From Balneolaceae bacterium (lineage in GTDB: Bacteria > Bacteroidota > Rhodothermia > Balneolales > Balneolaceae): 64,000 nt of DNA. The notes beneath the pieces were generated by a model. The model ran no database searches and was not told where the DNA came from. It worked only from the letters and a program-made list of their open reading frames with translations. Positions 5,227 through 48,992 of this stretch are shown here, one piece after another (position 1 is the first letter of the stretch; every line of letters starts with the position of its first letter). The position numbers and the translations under genes are program-made. The DNA is taken from assembly GCA_006969905.1 (NCBI GenBank), contig CP030887.1, positions 124,001 through 188,000 of the forward strand. Reading direction: 5' to 3'.

Positions 5227-6534
5227 ATGTCTCAGCTCAAAGACGTACTTTCAAGCAGCTATTACAAAGAACCCGTACCACATATAGAAAAGGATTCTCC
5301 ATTTGCTTCGATGATGGAGCGATTCAGGTTTGCATCGGAGATTCTGGATCTGGATCCCGGGGTTTTTAAATATTTATCAAGCCCTGAACGAGTGATCATT
5401 GTCGCCATTCCGATTACAATGGATGACGGGCGTATTGAAGTATTTGACGGATACCGTGTGATACATAACAGTATTCTCGGGCCGTCTAAAGGTGGTATTC
5501 GATATGCACATGATGTAAGCCTGGATGAAGTAAAAGCACTTGCAGCCTGGATGACATGGAAATGTGCCTGTGTAAATGTTCCCTTTGGTGGAGCGAAAGG
5601 CGGAATTCGTGTCAATCCAAAAAACTTATCTCAACATGAGTTGGAAAGGCTTACCCGTAGATACACCGCAAATATGCTGGATGTTTTTGGGCCAGACAGG
5701 GATATACCTGCTCCTGACATGAACACAAATGAGCAAACCATGGCCTGGATCATGGATACCTACAGCATGAAAAACCAACGTACTGAAAAAGCTGTTGTAA
5801 CAGGCAAACCAATTATACTTGGGGGATCAAAAGGCAGAAAAGAAGCTACAGGCCGTGGGGTAATCACTACTACCCTTGCGGCATTAAGCAAACTCAGGAT
5901 TTCTCCAAGTAATGCTACCGTTGTTGTACAAGGTTTTGGGAATGTGGGATCTGTTTCTGCTCAATTAATCTATGAGCAAGGTGCTAAAGTGATCGCAATT
6001 AGTGATGTAACCGGGGGGTATTATAATGCTGGAGGAATTGATATACCGGAAGCAATACATTATTCAATGACTAATGGGTTTTCACTTGAAGGTTTTGACG
6101 GAGCTGAGCCAATCGGTAACGATGAACTACTGGAGCTGGACTGCGATGTTTTAATTCCTGCTGCAAAAGAAAACCAGATTAACATTGAAAATGCACCAAA
6201 AATAAAAGCAAAGATTATTGCAGAAGGAGCAAACGGACCTGTAACGGCTAATGCCGATAAAATACTTGAAGAAAACGGTATTATGGTTGTTCCCGATATC
6301 TTAGCAAACGCAGGGGGTGTAACGGTCTCCTATTTTGAATGGGTACAAGACAGGCATGGATATTTCTGGACTGAAGAGCGGGTGAACCGTCGCCTAAACC
6401 GAATGATGAGAGAATCTTTTGATAACTTGTTTATGGTAAGTGAAAAGTATAGTATTACGCTTCGTCAGGCAGCGTATGTCTATGCAATAGATCGCGTGGC
6501 CACGACGCTTAAATTACGTGGCATCTATGCATAA
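5227..6534 (+). CDS. gdhA: Glutamate dehydrogenase (Glu/Leu/Phe/Val dehydrogenase family)
   Basis: A 435-residue cytosolic enzyme, the usual length of hexameric glutamate dehydrogenases. It interconverts glutamate with 2-oxoglutarate and ammonia using NAD(P). Visible signatures are the substrate/catalytic segment VPFGGAKGGI with K124, PAPDMNT near residue 162, and the dinucleotide-binding loop GFGNVG (236-241). The start ATG at 5227 gives a normal N terminus (MSQLKDVLSSSYYKEP). The next gene, an anti-sigma-type ATPase, begins 3 bases after the stop, so they are likely co-transcribed. Coenzyme preference cannot be read with certainty. Confidence 0.95.
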   Translation: MSQLKDVLSSSYYKEPVPHIEKDSPFASMMERFRFASEILDLDPGVFKYLSSPERVIIVAIPITMDDGRIEVFDGYRVIHNSILGPSKGGIRYAHDVSLDEVKALAAWMTWKCACVNVPFGGAKGGIRVNPKNLSQHELERLTRRYTANMLDVFGPDRDIPAPDMNTNEQTMAWIMDTYSMKNQRTEKAVVTGKPIILGGSKGRKEATGRGVITTTLAALSKLRISPSNATVVVQGFGNVGSVSAQLIYEQGAKVIAISDVTGGYYNAGGIDIPEAIHYSMTNGFSLEGFDGAEPIGNDELLELDCDVLIPAAKENQINIENAPKIKAKIIAEGANGPVTANADKILEENGIMVVPDILANAGGVTVSYFEWVQDRHGYFWTEERVNRRLNRMMRESFDNLFMVSEKYSITLRQAAYVYAIDRVATTLKLRGIYA

Positions 6535-6537
6535 ATA

Positions 6538-6939
6538 ATGAAGATTCGGAAGGAACTGGTTTTAAAATCCACTTATGAAGAAGTTGAAAAGGTTGAGCAC
6601 CTTTTAAACGATTTACAAGCAGAACTTGGCTTTGATGATGAACTATATGCTAAGCTCATGCTCACGGTAAGTGAGGCTGCAACAAATGGAATTGTTCACG
6701 GTAACCAGCTGGATGAGACTAAGAAAGTTTATATGGTTGCCGAGAGTGATGGCAAAACGCTTACAGTAAGTTCCCAGGATGAAGGCGAAGGTTTTAGCCC
6801 AAACGAAGTACCCGATCCATTGGCCGAAGAAAACCTGCTTAAGCCCAGTGGAAGAGGAGTGTTTTTAATGAGAGAGTATGCTGACGAAGTACAGTATGCC
6901 AATAACGGAACCAAACTAGTATTGACTTTCAAGCTTTAG
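6538..6939 (+). CDS. Anti-sigma regulatory factor-like ATP-binding protein (RsbW/SpoIIAB type)
   Basis: A 133-residue stand-alone GHKL ATPase domain. The N-box is seen in LTVSEAATNGIVHGNQ (about 42-57) and the G1/G2 boxes in DEGEGFSP and GRGVFLMREYADEV. Proteins of this HATPase_c_2 type are serine kinases that phosphorylate STAS-domain anti-anti-sigma partners or bind sigma factors. No STAS protein or sigma factor is encoded nearby, so the partner is elsewhere. It follows gdhA by 3 bases, which is an unusual pairing and probably reflects shared transcription rather than shared function. Confidence 0.85.
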   Translation: MKIRKELVLKSTYEEVEKVEHLLNDLQAELGFDDELYAKLMLTVSEAATNGIVHGNQLDETKKVYMVAESDGKTLTVSSQDEGEGFSPNEVPDPLAEENLLKPSGRGVFLMREYADEVQYANNGTKLVLTFKL

Positions 6940-6978
6940 CTGACCAAATCATTTCCAATACACTTTATAGAAGCAGGT

Positions 6979-8313
6979 TTATTCCGTACGGTTCAGCAAC
7001 CTTCCACTTAGCCTGAGAAGTTCAGTCTCTGCTCTTTTGGCTTCTATTTGTGCCACAATTAGCCGGTTTTCGGCATTCAATAAACTAAGCTGTGCTTCGC
7101 GTAACTCTACAGAATTGATGGTTCCTAAACGATAGCGCTCAAGGGCGATATCAAGGCTTTGATTTGTGTATTGTAGGTTCTCTTTCTCAAGCTCAATAAG
7201 TTCCAGGGCATCGGTATACTGTGCGTGTGTTTGCTTTACCTGAGATGTAATTTGAAGTTGTAGTTCCTCAGTTCGAAGCTGTTCATTTTTTAACCTTATC
7301 TGTGCATTTTGTTTTCTCCTGCTCCTGTTAAGGCCATCAAATAAACTCAGCCTGGCGGTAATCCCGTAGTTAAACCCGGTTGTTTCAGAAAAATCGGTGA
7401 ACCCAGCACTCGATTCTACCCGGCTGTATCCATAACCGCCACTCAAATCAATTTGGGGAAACCATTCTCCGGTTATTTCCCGAACTTCTGTTTTAGCAAC
7501 CGATTCATTCATTCGTGTAATGCTCAACTCCCTGTTCTGTCTATTCGCATCACTAATCAGGCTATTCAGCTCCAACCGCTCTCCCATTTCAATATTGGCT
7601 TGTACTTCAAAATCTGAAAATGAAGAGTCGGATAGTATTTCGTTGATAAGAATCTTCACTTGTTTTAAAGAGGTTCCGGATCTTATTAACGCAGCCCGGT
7701 CTGCATTTAAATCTGCACGGGCCTGGAGCAAATCATACTCTGAACCTGAACCCAGGTCATTTTTGGTTTCTGCAATTCTTATTCGTTCCCTTGAAATGTC
7801 AAGGGTATTTTCTAGTATTTGATATGCTTGTTGCTGGCCAACAACCTGGTAATAACCTGAGATCAAATCAGCCAGTAACATTTCAACCTGTAATTGAGCC
7901 TCTATATCTCCAATATCTGCTTCCAGAGAAAGCCTGTCTAAAGTGGCAAACATGGTTAATCCATCAAAAACAGTCCAGTTTGCATCAATACCATAATTAT
8001 ATACTGTGGTTTCCACACCTATGTCATTTCGGTCAGGGATGTTATCAGAAGAAAACTCAGTGACATTATCCTCAACCCGCCTATTGATGCTTCCATCTGA
8101 TGATAGCACAGGCAGCATACCTGCATTCCCCATACTATTATTATTCCCGGCTATACGTGCATCGTTTCTTGCTATACGTATTGCAAAGTTCTTTTCAAGC
8201 GCTAACCGAATTGCTTCTTCGACCCTTAACGTGTCCTGAGCTTCTACACTTAATGGAAAAACTGAAATCAATAAAAGCCCCGCAGCAATATTTCTGATAA
8301 ACTTCATTTTCAT
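6979..8313 (-). CDS. TolC-family outer membrane efflux protein
   Basis: A 444-residue protein with a signal peptide (KFIRNIAAGLLLISVFPLSVEAQ) and two TolC-type repeats of long helical hairpins, each starting with the L.EA...AL..N...... pattern (LRVEEAIRLALEKNFAIRIARND; later LGTINSVELREAQLSLLNAENRL). Such proteins form trimeric outer-membrane channels. It is the last gene of a three-gene efflux operon (adaptor, RND pump, channel) read leftward; its ATG follows the pump stop codon by one base, showing tight coupling. Confidence 0.93.
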   Translation of the reverse strand: MKMKFIRNIAAGLLLISVFPLSVEAQDTLRVEEAIRLALEKNFAIRIARNDARIAGNNNSMGNAGMLPVLSSDGSINRRVEDNVTEFSSDNIPDRNDIGVETTVYNYGIDANWTVFDGLTMFATLDRLSLEADIGDIEAQLQVEMLLADLISGYYQVVGQQQAYQILENTLDISRERIRIAETKNDLGSGSEYDLLQARADLNADRAALIRSGTSLKQVKILINEILSDSSFSDFEVQANIEMGERLELNSLISDANRQNRELSITRMNESVAKTEVREITGEWFPQIDLSGGYGYSRVESSAGFTDFSETTGFNYGITARLSLFDGLNRSRRKQNAQIRLKNEQLRTEELQLQITSQVKQTHAQYTDALELIELEKENLQYTNQSLDIALERYRLGTINSVELREAQLSLLNAENRLIVAQIEAKRAETELLRLSGRLLNRTE

Positions 8314-45206: not shown

Positions 45207-46064
45207 CTACTTCAATCCAAACACCCGGTTTACGTTAAATCCAAGTCTGAAATCGCCCGCAAAAAAGTCATTGGTTGTACGGGCTAATAGATGTTGCTCG
45301 GTAAACCAATTCCCGCTCATAAAGAACATTTGAAATACATGACCTCCGGTATCAATTTGCCAGGATACTGCCATTGGATTTTTAGTTCCTTTGGTTCGGT
45401 CTCCAAGCACTGCGAAATATTCAAAAGAAACCGAGTGTTTCAGGTTAAACCGATATTCACCTCCGAACCCGGCTCCGTAATGGGTATGTTCCGGGTCCTG
45501 ATCAGCAGTTTCTATCACCACCGTATTGAAGTGTGAAACCATAGGAGCAACCTGGAAACTAAACGAATCACTAAACCTACGGGCTACTGCCACAGAACCA
45601 AACATATTTAACCGATCCTGAAAAGAAGGATCAAATCTTCGCTCTTCCTGGGTGTTGATTCCAATATCTCCTTTTATGGAAACCTCAACGGGTACTTTAT
45701 CAGACTTCATTTGTTGAAGTAGCATATATTTAAATCTCAGATCAACATTGTCTTCCCGGCTGGTTCTTCCTATCCCAACCGAAAACCTGTCCGTAATACC
45801 GTAATCAATCCCAAGTCGCACTGCTGCTCCCTGATCCAGACCCCAGAACTCTTCAATCCCGGTACTCACGAGCCCGAAATTGTGCATAATGGTGCTGTTC
45901 ATGTTGTTTTTCTGAAGATTGGATGTCGTTGACATTGTGATCAAAGACATCGTCAAAAATACCTCAAGCGGTTCATCAGTAACCGTTCGGCGGCGCTCCA
46001 TTTGCCCTAAGGCAATTTCTGAAACCAGAAATCCGATCAGAATAAATGCCCCGAACTTCTTCAT
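45207..46064 (-). CDS. DUF5777-type outer-membrane beta-barrel protein
   Basis: A 285-residue protein with a signal peptide (MKKFGAFILIGFLVSEIALG) and alternating beta-strand sequence ending in an aromatic C terminus. The start VFLTMSLITMSTTSNLQKNNMNSTIMHNFG and VRLGIDYGITDRFSVGIGRT fit the DUF5777 barrel family of Bacteroidota. It is the last gene of a cytochrome-YceI-DUF5777 operon and overlaps the YceI gene by 4 bases. Function unknown; the setting suggests lipid, respiratory or quinone-related envelope work. Confidence 0.82.
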   Translation of the reverse strand: MKKFGAFILIGFLVSEIALGQMERRRTVTDEPLEVFLTMSLITMSTTSNLQKNNMNSTIMHNFGLVSTGIEEFWGLDQGAAVRLGIDYGITDRFSVGIGRTSREDNVDLRFKYMLLQQMKSDKVPVEVSIKGDIGINTQEERRFDPSFQDRLNMFGSVAVARRFSDSFSFQVAPMVSHFNTVVIETADQDPEHTHYGAGFGGEYRFNLKHSVSFEYFAVLGDRTKGTKNPMAVSWQIDTGGHVFQMFFMSGNWFTEQHLLARTTNDFFAGDFRLGFNVNRVFGLK

Positions 46065-46606
46065 GATTCACCCCTGATTTTCAAAACAGCATTAATCTCG
46101 ATTTCCTGCTCCTGGTCTACTTTTATGAAAAGAAGCTTAGGTGGCTCTATTTCATAGTCTTCCAGTTTTAAAATCCATCCTGCTGTAAGATTTAGCTGAT
46201 CTCCTTCCGGAGTGAGTTTTCCGGTTACTTCTATATTTTGCTCTTTCCCGTGAATTTTAAACACTCCTTCAACGGTGACGTCCTGAGCTTCTTCTAAGTC
46301 GGGATTGAATTCTGAGGTGATTTTACCAAAAAACTCTCCAAACGGATGATTTTCGGTATCAAGGGTTAGTCTCATATCCTTATCACGTTTCCCATTCCCC
46401 GTATCCAGAGTGGCTAAATCAAGGTAAAAATCAACGGTTCTCTTTTCCAGGTCGATAAGCCCGGTTAAGTTTTCGGATGTTCCGGAAAATGTATGCAGCG
46501 GAACTTTTGAATGGAAAACAACAGTACCCGAATCAGTGAAATAACTTTGTGAATAGCCATGAATGCTTATGGTCAGCAAAAAGGCTGTGAGTATTAATTT
46601 TTTCAT
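46061..46606 (-). CDS. YceI-family lipid-binding protein
   Basis: A 181-residue secreted protein with a signal peptide (MKKLILTAFLLTISIHGYSQS). The YceI beta-barrel pattern is present: S.V.FHSKVPLHTFSGTSENLTG, LDTGNGKRDKDMRLTLDTENHPFGEF and the C-terminal ...INAVLKIRGES. Members bind polyisoprenoid or amphiphilic molecules in the periplasm. It lies 9 bases after the cytochrome-like gene and overlaps the DUF5777 gene by 4 bases, so the three form one operon. Confidence 0.9.
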   Translation of the reverse strand: MKKLILTAFLLTISIHGYSQSYFTDSGTVVFHSKVPLHTFSGTSENLTGLIDLEKRTVDFYLDLATLDTGNGKRDKDMRLTLDTENHPFGEFFGKITSEFNPDLEEAQDVTVEGVFKIHGKEQNIEVTGKLTPEGDQLNLTAGWILKLEDYEIEPPKLLFIKVDQEQEIEINAVLKIRGES

Positions 46607-47026: not shown

Positions 47027-47208
47027 ACTCCACAAACTTTGTTTTGATTTCGATAAATGGTGATTAAGAAGTAAATACAGACTTAGTATTACTTCCCTGA
47101 TACAAGATTAATCAGTTTTTCTGAGTTTGAGGTATCAATAAAGCGCCAAATGTTTATCCATTTCCGACCTCAGATATACACCGGACTATAACAAATCCGA
47201 CATTTTAT

Positions 47209-48912
47209 TTAACCGTAGGCTTCCTGTAGCTCAGTTGGAGTTTTCCCAAACTCCTTTTTAAAGCACTTTGAAAAGTAGGATGGGCTGGAAAACCCTGTCT
47301 GATAACATGCTTCCGAAATATTACTCTCTCCTGAGAGTATCAACTCTTTTGCCCGATGAAGTCGCACTGAAGTGATTAATTGATTGGGAGTTTTATTTGT
47401 GATTTGCTTCAGTTTTCGCTGGAGCTGACGCTCGCTCATACCTACTTCTCTGCTAAGGATTTCCACTCCATAACTTTCATCATTTAAATGCTCATCAATA
47501 CTTTTAAGAACACTATCCAACAGCGAGCCTTTTAAAGGGATATTATTTAATAGTGAACCGGCATGATCAGAATCATATGCCCTGGCTTCATCGATGGTAA
47601 ATAATGCTGAAATCTCCGGGATGGTTTCTCTTTGTGGATTATAGCTGGTAAAACTAAGCCCTGCACCTGACAAGAGATGCTTTACTGTTTCTGTTACGAT
47701 GATTGAATCAGAATCAACATTGGTTAACAGTGCATCAAAAAATGCTGCGGCTTTGTCTCCCGGCGTATTAATTTCTTCGATGGCTGATTCTTTGATATAA
47801 GCGCCTATTTTGATGTGGCCTTTAAGACTTGAAACAGCTTTTACAATATCCAACCCGTAATGAACTGCTTTGCTTGGACCTTCAAAAGCTGCAGTGAATG
47901 AATCCTGATTGAGCTCTACAATTCTTCCCCGGTGCTCGCCCACGAACTGGCCTATGATTCCCTGTAAATCCAATGAGTCTTCATTGCCGGATGAATCGAT
48001 TTTTCCTTTAATAATAGTCAAAAGCTGTCTCCTGTGGTTTTCAATGGGCTTCATTGTTCTGAGAAAGCCCTTCATCTCATCAAGAATTTCCTGAGTATTT
48101 CCAGCCCAGAACAAGTGATCGCTTCCTGAAAACTCTACGAACTTTGCCCCCTCAATATGTTCGGCTATAAAGCGCCCCTCCTCAATTTTTACATCAATAT
48201 CATTTGTGCGCTGCATGATTAGTGTAGGCACCTTGATTGAACTCAAAATATCAATAATGTCTACCTGGGTATTCATTTTTGTGAGTACCATAGCCGCACT
48301 TGGACTGGCACCTGATCGAAAATAATTAGCCAGCCAACTCATAAACTCAGGATCGTCTGCTTTTGATGGAGCAAGAGATTCCAGCTCCATATCTCCTCCT
48401 CCCCAGCTGTTTTCGATCATGTCATATACTTTCTGACGTTCCTCATCGGTAGGTGCCCATGGATAATTAGGGGAATATTGTCGCTTGGCAAAAATTCCGA
48501 ATGCAATTAACGCGCTTGTCCGGCTTGGATAGGTAGCTGCAAATAGCGCCGAAACAGAACCTCCCTCTGAGTGACCAAACAACACTGCTTTTTCAGAACC
48601 AACCGCATCCATAACCGCACGGATATCATCCATCCGTTCTTCCAATGTGGATACGTCCACAACCCGGTCAGAAAGTCCTGTGCCCCTTTTATCAAAAAGA
48701 ATGATTCTAGCAACTTTGCTCAGTTCTTCAAAGAAATGAACCAGCTCAGGACAATCCCACATAAGGTCAATATTAGAAACCCATCCCGGGATGTATACAA
48801 TATCTACCGGGCCGGACCCAAATACCTGATAAGCGATATTTATTCGCCCGCTTTTTGTGTACTGTGTTACTGGTTTCATGAGATCAACTGTGACGCTGGC
48901 ATCAAGATACAT
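47209..48912 (-). CDS. Three-part fusion: alpha/beta hydrolase, degenerate class III cyclase domain, AraC DNA-binding domain
   Basis: A 567-residue protein in three parts. Residues 12-290 are an alpha/beta hydrolase with nucleophile S115 in GHSEGG and SDHLFW for the catalytic His. Residues about 297-440 look like a class III nucleotide cyclase (VGEHRGRIVELNQDSFTAAFEGPSKAVHYGL; SDSIIVTETVKHLLSGAGLSF), but the metal-binding FTDI and GDG positions are lost, so it should not make cyclic nucleotides. Residues about 465-567 are an AraC domain (LSREVGMSERQLQRKLKQIT ... SEACYQTGFSSPSYFSKCFKKEFGKTP). The start is ATG 48912; ATG 48879 (MKPVTQY) is an alternative that better matches free-standing relatives. 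I infer a one-protein regulator sensing a hydrolysable ligand. Confidence 0.85.
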   Translation of the reverse strand: MYLDASVTVDLMKPVTQYTKSGRINIAYQVFGSGPVDIVYIPGWVSNIDLMWDCPELVHFFEELSKVARIILFDKRGTGLSDRVVDVSTLEERMDDIRAVMDAVGSEKAVLFGHSEGGSVSALFAATYPSRTSALIAFGIFAKRQYSPNYPWAPTDEERQKVYDMIENSWGGGDMELESLAPSKADDPEFMSWLANYFRSGASPSAAMVLTKMNTQVDIIDILSSIKVPTLIMQRTNDIDVKIEEGRFIAEHIEGAKFVEFSGSDHLFWAGNTQEILDEMKGFLRTMKPIENHRRQLLTIIKGKIDSSGNEDSLDLQGIIGQFVGEHRGRIVELNQDSFTAAFEGPSKAVHYGLDIVKAVSSLKGHIKIGAYIKESAIEEINTPGDKAAAFFDALLTNVDSDSIIVTETVKHLLSGAGLSFTSYNPQRETIPEISALFTIDEARAYDSDHAGSLLNNIPLKGSLLDSVLKSIDEHLNDESYGVEILSREVGMSERQLQRKLKQITNKTPNQLITSVRLHRAKELILSGESNISEACYQTGFSSPSYFSKCFKKEFGKTPTELQEAYG

Positions 48913-48957: not shown

Positions 48958-48992
48958 AAAAAACCCTCGCTCAACTGAATGAACGAGGGTTT
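48958..48992 (-). terminator. Intrinsic terminator of groES-groEL
   Basis: A perfect 9-bp stem, AAACCCTCG (48961-48969) with CGAGGGTTT (48984-48992), and a T-run on the minus strand. It lies 34 bases past the groEL stop. Confidence 0.9.

Follow-up and report, generated by a model that had tools for sequence, protein, structure and literature searches.

The minus-strand gene at 47209-48912 of the window (the whole 64,000-nucleotide stretch of Balneolaceae DNA analysed here) probably encodes a soluble one-component activator, in which an alpha/beta hydrolase would act as the receptor, a cyclase-derived middle domain as the coupling module and an AraC domain, seated on an array of DNA repeats, as the output that controls the next operon. 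Within this reading we infer the ligand, its hydrolysis, the direction of regulation and the role of the middle domain. Hydrolase-cyclase proteins and AraC regulators are both already known, and their union is best called a one-component regulator with a hydrolase receptor. What is new here is a mapped candidate operator and promoter, which supports a link between the AraC part and the next operon. In the portions of the literature searched, mostly outside subscription journals, no description of the hydrolase-cyclase-AraC architecture or of its operator was found. The gene and its parts are as follows.

47209..48912, minus strand: whole gene, alpha/beta hydrolase - degenerate class III cyclase domain - AraC DNA-binding domain (ORF, Pfam, NCBIfam)
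48052..48879, minus strand: alpha/beta hydrolase, residues 12-287 (Pfam, conservation, triad)
48568-48570, minus strand: triad Ser115 (alignment)
48199-48201, minus strand: triad Asp238 (alignment)
48115-48117, minus strand: triad His266 (alignment)
47527..48051, minus strand: degenerate class III cyclase domain, residues 288-462, with Lys304 in place of the first metal Asp (profile, fold, alignment)
47221..47457, minus strand: AraC-type double helix-turn-helix, HTH_18, residues 486-564 (Pfam)
48961..48992, minus strand: terminator-like hairpin between groEL and the hydrolase-cyclase-AraC gene (pattern match only)

The gene is one uninterrupted ORF of 567 aa. In most homologs the start corresponds to the second Met (Met12, window 48879); translation may begin there, leaving residues 1-11 untranslated. 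Pfam places Abhydrolase_1 at residues 38-267 (E 8e-15) and HTH_18 at residues 486-564 (E 2.5e-24), the latter at 85.8 bits against a gathering score of 33.6, as expected of the double helix-turn-helix of the AraC/XylS family. The middle alone gave no Pfam cyclase match. The LipJ lipase/adenylate cyclase model (NCBIfam NF058673) aligned over residues 13-423 (E 4.7e-70) with 236.5 bits, short of its curated cut-off of 800 bits. The first-pass annotation had traced three parts by motif, a hydrolase with GHSEGG, a cyclase-like middle and an AraC C terminus; this layout is borne out by the single ORF, the Pfam and NCBIfam matches and the predicted fold. The terminator-like hairpin, identified by pattern match only, separates the gene from groEL; the gene therefore probably forms a transcription unit of its own, and co-transcription with groEL is unlikely. 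A defence system was also considered and set aside: the single PADLOC match (PDLC01094, E 1.3e-4) covers only the hydrolase part and was taken as a general hydrolase match.

Relatives came from one scan of bacterial and archaeal genomes, which gave 79 loci; loci of the host's own family and phylum were added to it, and three (L001, L086, L087) were dropped as duplicates of the window, L007 and L032. The full-length protein with the same domain order is present in 63 loci including the window, and the order is therefore not a chance fusion; the search for it had been proposed in the first-pass annotation, and the 62 other loci answer it. Nearly all of these belong to Bacteroidota/Balneolota, mainly Flavobacteriaceae, cytophagal families, Saprospiraceae and Balneolaceae, and two (L011, L013) lie in MAGs labelled Pseudomonadota, labels which may be wrong. 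Occurrence is patchy, as for a gene gained and lost, since it was found in 4 of 92 genomes of the host's family (host included), in none of the other 7 members of the host's genus, and in a sample of the host's phylum where 5 of 394 genomes matched at 1e-40, one of them (G103) through the hydrolase only. LipJ-type relatives on plasmids (Sinorhizobium, Paraburkholderia and others) share about 40% identity with the window protein over residues 4-447, and 0 of 122 plasmid records cover 80% of it.

The hydrolase is the best-conserved part of the protein. Averaged over all pairs of 59 aligned rows, identity reaches 77% in the hydrolase and 62% in the AraC part but falls to 30% in the middle. GHSEGG occupies residues 113-118, and Ser115, Asp238 and His266 are identical in 59/59 aligned relatives, so that both the fold and the Ser-Asp-His triad of an alpha/beta hydrolase are present. 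By sequence and by fold its nearest solved relatives include RsbQ and the plant receptors D14/KAI2, and also plain or true esterases; the kinship with RsbQ and D14/KAI2 would allow a receptor role without proving it. The hydrolase superfamily is also fused to LuxR-type or AraC-type outputs without any cyclase. Related hydrolases are joined to a LuxR-type helix-turn-helix in Balneolaceae and in one genome of the same class, and at L089 (genome G103) the hydrolase is joined directly to an AraC domain in a protein of 398 aa with no middle. The LuxR-linked proteins and the absence of the middle at L089 mark the hydrolase as a reusable input module and the cyclase as a dispensable middle.

Some further features of these relatives were observed. 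The LuxR-type fusions lie at L095, L096, L097, L099 and L101 (GerE, with Pfam on L095, L096 and L099), and in some of them Cys replaces the Ser nucleophile (GFCQGG). Genome G103 has two hydrolase-AraC places, L089 (1507-2703) and L100, 8.6 kb apart and with equal scores, and other repeated words, perhaps an operator of its own, were seen by eye in the DNA after the L089 gene. In a hydrolase tree rooted by the very long branch of L089, with unsettled bootstrap, the Saprospiraceae copies seem early-branching, which is a hint only.

The profile, the sequence and the predicted fold all indicate that the middle is cyclase-derived. A profile of the middle from 52 members, with Saprospiraceae left out, had as its top match among solved proteins 1ybt, the cyclase domain of LipJ/Rv1900c (E 1.2e-15), and the window's own 175 middle residues alone had the same best match (1.1e-4). 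Predicted alone (pLDDT 86.6), the middle matched class III cyclases in all 50 Foldseek matches listed. Rv1900c (1ybu_B) was best by VIA-align, with Z 18.6 and rmsd 2.5 over 148 aligned residues (rows within 1 were counted as tied). Both profile and fold therefore match the catalytic domain of the class III nucleotide cyclases. The first-pass annotation had named a profile unrelated to class III cyclases as the outcome that would overturn its reading; such an unrelated origin is ruled out by the profile, by the protein's own sequence and by the fold, the structure prediction it had suggested giving a class III cyclase fold.

The metal residues of the cyclase are not conserved. The first cyclase metal Asp is Lys304 in the window protein, and the second metal position aligns to Asp337, which stands in QDS rather than GDG, with no GDG turn. 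The earlier statement that the metal sites are missing thus stands for the first position and not for the second, which is still an Asp though without its turn. The window protein does not have the two metal-binding Asp residues of LipJ, and its sequence predicts no cyclase activity. Both metal Asps are found in 1 of 59 aligned relatives, L059 of the Saprospiraceae, whose middle passes the Pfam Guanylate_cyc threshold (22.0 vs 21.9) and aligns to Rv1900c with E 1e-19. At 6001-7710 of that locus the hydrolase-cyclase-AraC order is combined with both Asps, possibly a live cyclase in a DNA-binding protein.

Repeated words resembling TGTCGGATTTGTTATAG were noticed in the DNA just 3′ of the regulator gene. 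These resolve into 17-bp direct repeats, TGTCGGAwwTGTTATAG, with a core spacing of 21 bp, lying directly after the gene and ahead of the next operon. Several loci carry half-sites a, b, c and d at about 0, +19/20, +41/42 and +62/63. In the window the array and the proposed target operon are laid out as follows.

47186..47202, minus strand: half-site a, TGTCGGATTTGTTATAG, sole perfect copy in the 3.49-Mb genome (motif, genome scan)
47153..47169, minus strand: half-site c, degenerate here (motif)
47132..47148, minus strand: half-site d, degenerate, 21 bp from c (motif)
47103..47110, minus strand: candidate -7 promoter box TAATCTTG, TAnnTTTG with one mismatch, 21 bp after d (consensus of PMC9723704)
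46616..47035, minus strand: first gene of the proposed target operon, small PSCyt1-type cytochrome c protein (ORF, Pfam)
46061..46606, minus strand: second gene, YceI-like protein (ORF, Pfam)
45207..46064, minus strand: third gene, DUF5777 membrane beta-barrel protein (ORF, Pfam)

One of the 63 loci is too short for this count; of the other 62, 24 contain the 7-mer TGTCGGA in the stretch after the gene, where random stretches of the same loci lead us to expect 1.2. A weight matrix was trained on nine loci, picked after the motif had been spotted by eye, and applied to the 54 others: it found a half-site pair at spacing 21 in 23/54 loci, while spacings 19, 20 and 22 gave 5, 4 and 5 loci and the remaining spacings from 15 to 28 gave none. 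Control stretches of the same loci had the pair in 8/1007 cases, shuffles in 0/1080 and opposite strands in 0/54. Upstream of the gene the operator was found in 0/54 held-out loci, and in 5/63 at a loose threshold, which is near background; auto-regulation through an upstream operator was rejected on these counts.

The array leads up to a candidate promoter. The main sigma factor of flavobacteria has a TAnnTTTG box at -12 to -5, according to the part of PMC9723704 available. The final matrix, which was trained on the stretches it counts, gives 39 loci a c-d pair of 14 bits or more. In 33 of these this -7 box (with at most one mismatch) lies 20 or 21 bp after site d, and at any other offset from 0 to 36 it is present in at most 1 locus. 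The fixed distance is independent evidence because the matrix does not contain these bases. Site d spans about -50 to -33, a position that would be that of a polymerase-touching activator.

With the same final matrix, and a counting threshold of 18 bits, the operator plus box was found 66 times in 1.52 Mb around the gene on both strands, in 49/62 loci; these counts come from the training stretches, the nine-against-54 test alone being held out. Thirty-eight of the 66 units lie no more than 260 bases past the gene; of the remaining 28, all but one are on the same strand. Two control sets gave none: 15 loci with other AraC proteins (327 kb) and 27 loci that have DUF5777 but lack the regulator gene (199 kb). 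The complete operator-promoter is absent in 13/62 loci, including the window's closest relatives (L007, L032), both of which keep partial sites. In the window itself the core pair c-d reaches 14.4 bits together, below the counting threshold. Five loci (L008, L024, L028, L029, L063) have further operator-promoter units a few kb from the regulator, up to 6.5 kb before it, and because of these extra units some genomes appear to have a local regulon around the regulator.

Within the host's family the perfect half-site is found in 3 of 92 genomes, once each and always beside the regulator gene, and in none of the 88 genomes without the gene; in G123, the remaining family genome with the gene, the copy at the same place has three mismatches. 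A global regulator in the host genome was rejected: with three mismatches allowed the motif gave 29 matches, against 79 for a reversed-pattern control. Position and co-occurrence suggest that the AraC domain of the window protein would read the 17-bp repeat.

A homolog of the PSCyt1-type gene is next or next-but-one after the regulator in 16/63 loci. In two other family genomes the DUF5777 protein beside the regulator is 82-83% identical to that of the window, whereas the host's own second, distant copy is 54% identical, and so the regulator and the cytochrome/YceI/DUF5777 operon seem to travel together. One further family genome with the regulator (G104) had no DUF5777 match at the threshold used. 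Elsewhere the same regulator-operator unit precedes unrelated operons of curli, contractile-injection, adhesin and nitrogen genes. Downstream of the regulator are, among others, curli genes CsgE/CsgF/CsgG at L016, genes for Pvc16 and the sheath of a contractile injection system at L033, BspA-type adhesins at L043, glutamine synthetase, glutaminase or an ammonium transporter at L021, L027 and L022, and Lipoprotein_15 at L014. This diversity of targets points to no single signal.

Several of these neighbourhoods recur. Curli assembly genes CsgE, CsgF and CsgG lie 3′ of the regulator in L015 and L016 (Pfam on L016 only), and the contractile injection set (Pvc16, tail sheath) in L033, L034, L038 and L028 of Aquimarina and Flavobacterium (Pfam on L033 only). 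Small secreted-looking GPxAKN-repeat proteins recur under the operator-promoter in L008, L021, L022, L024, L026, L027 and L088; that of L027, the one run against Pfam, had no match. In some Flavobacteriaceae a TPR protein with a terminal LuxR-type helix-turn-helix is encoded just before the regulator (L033 3940-5709, L043 4169-5839). Neighbour clusters were formed mechanically, and cluster c0 mixes histidine kinases with TPR-LuxR proteins.

Taken together, these data suggest the following mechanism. The hydrolase would be the receptor, binding and perhaps cleaving a small ester- or lactone-like molecule. Its change would be relayed through the cyclase-derived middle, which would make no cyclic nucleotide and would serve as a coupling or pairing module, and would alter the seating of two or more AraC domains on the 17-bp repeat array 3′ of the gene. 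The last repeat ends 20-21 bp short of the -7 box, in the place usually taken by a -33 element, and the protein bound there would therefore most likely recruit RNA polymerase to the next operon (here cytochrome-YceI-DUF5777). The one-protein switch proposed in the first-pass annotation gains from these results, in that the operator and promoter connect the AraC part with the operon that follows, and conservation is highest in the hydrolase.

The usual sensor of AraC/XylS regulators is a cupin or a similar pocket, and their operators are typically direct-repeat half-sites spaced by about 21 bp next to the promoter. Such half-sites were found across the present family, with the window's core pair weak at 14.4 bits. 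The window protein thus resembles these one-component regulators in its HTH_18 domain and in half-sites 21 bp apart next to a promoter, and differs in that its sensor is an alpha/beta hydrolase with a degenerate cyclase and its operator lies 3′ of the regulator gene. RsbQ and D14/KAI2, which are among both the sequence and the fold matches, are likewise hydrolases with an intact triad that signal, a role we infer here. They act through partner proteins, whereas the window protein carries its output domain in the same chain. Hydrolase-as-receptor action has been argued mainly for plant hormones and for RsbQ, the partners being separate proteins. KAI2 and RsbQ share a topology, according to the part of PMC3548789 available.

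The hydrolase-cyclase fusions that the first-pass annotation named as known are of the LipJ/Rv1900c type (NF058673; 1ybt, 1ybu), in which the same hydrolase precedes the same class III cyclase domain; unlike these, the window protein has lost a cyclase metal residue and gained an AraC DNA-binding domain. Mycobacterial cyclase-ATPase-HTH proteins also combine a class III cyclase domain with a helix-turn-helix in one protein, but in the part of PMC3938503 available they are described without a hydrolase, with an AAA-ATPase in the middle and with the cyclase treated as catalytic. The DUF2652 cyclase-like proteins of Bacteroidetes were rejected as another architecture, being single-domain with one exception in the portion of PMC4886424 consulted.

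Other readings of the same data are possible in differing degree. The hydrolase might be a trigger enzyme, that is, a working enzyme within the metabolic pathway under control, whose substrate turnover, rather than mere binding, sets DNA binding. The complete triad in 59/59 relatives, the 77% mean identity and the true esterases among the best solved relatives would all suit this; the controlled genes, however, vary widely while the hydrolase stays constant, which is ill-suited to one fixed pathway, and the superfamily is attached to several output domains, so we consider this somewhat unlikely. That the middle still binds a nucleotide as a second input, as the first-pass annotation had allowed, is harder to maintain and appears quite improbable: the fold is retained and L059 keeps both Asps and passes the Guanylate_cyc threshold, but Lys304 replaces the first metal Asp, both Asps survive in 1/59, the metal residues and most of the domain are unconserved (30% mean identity), and the domain is absent in L089.

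On the DNA side, the protein could repress the downstream operon instead of activating it, since site d abuts the core promoter and a repressor could also block there. The rigid 20-21 bp between d and the box (33/39) fits what direct contact with polymerase would require, while a repressor needs no such spacing, and repression is accordingly an unlikely reading. It is very improbable that the array belongs to a leader RNA or to some other regulator and just happens to lie beside the gene; a TPR-LuxR regulator does precede the gene in L033 and L043, but the array follows the regulator gene ahead of unrelated operons, and the perfect half-site is found in three of the four family genomes with the gene and in 0/88 others. 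Activation of the next operon by a hydrolase-receptor protein is the reading we prefer.

Since sensor, output and probable DNA target are adjacent, a reporter and a direct ligand screen are feasible. Moreover, the family grades from a cyclase domain that keeps both metal residues, by way of worn-out ones, to no such domain at all, a series that lets one ask why a dead signalling enzyme should be kept. It is possible, though we put it forward tentatively, that the protein does in bacteria what the hydrolase hormone receptors do in plants, with receptor and DNA-binding output joined in one chain, and that the receptor gene and its operator-promoter form a portable cassette that across Bacteroidota came to stand before operons as unrelated as those for redox, curli, contractile injection, adhesins and nitrogen, presumably all answering one conserved diffusible ester or lactone. 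That one conserved sensor stands ahead of curli, contractile-injection and adhesin operons hints at a common cue behind the surface behaviour of Bacteroidota.
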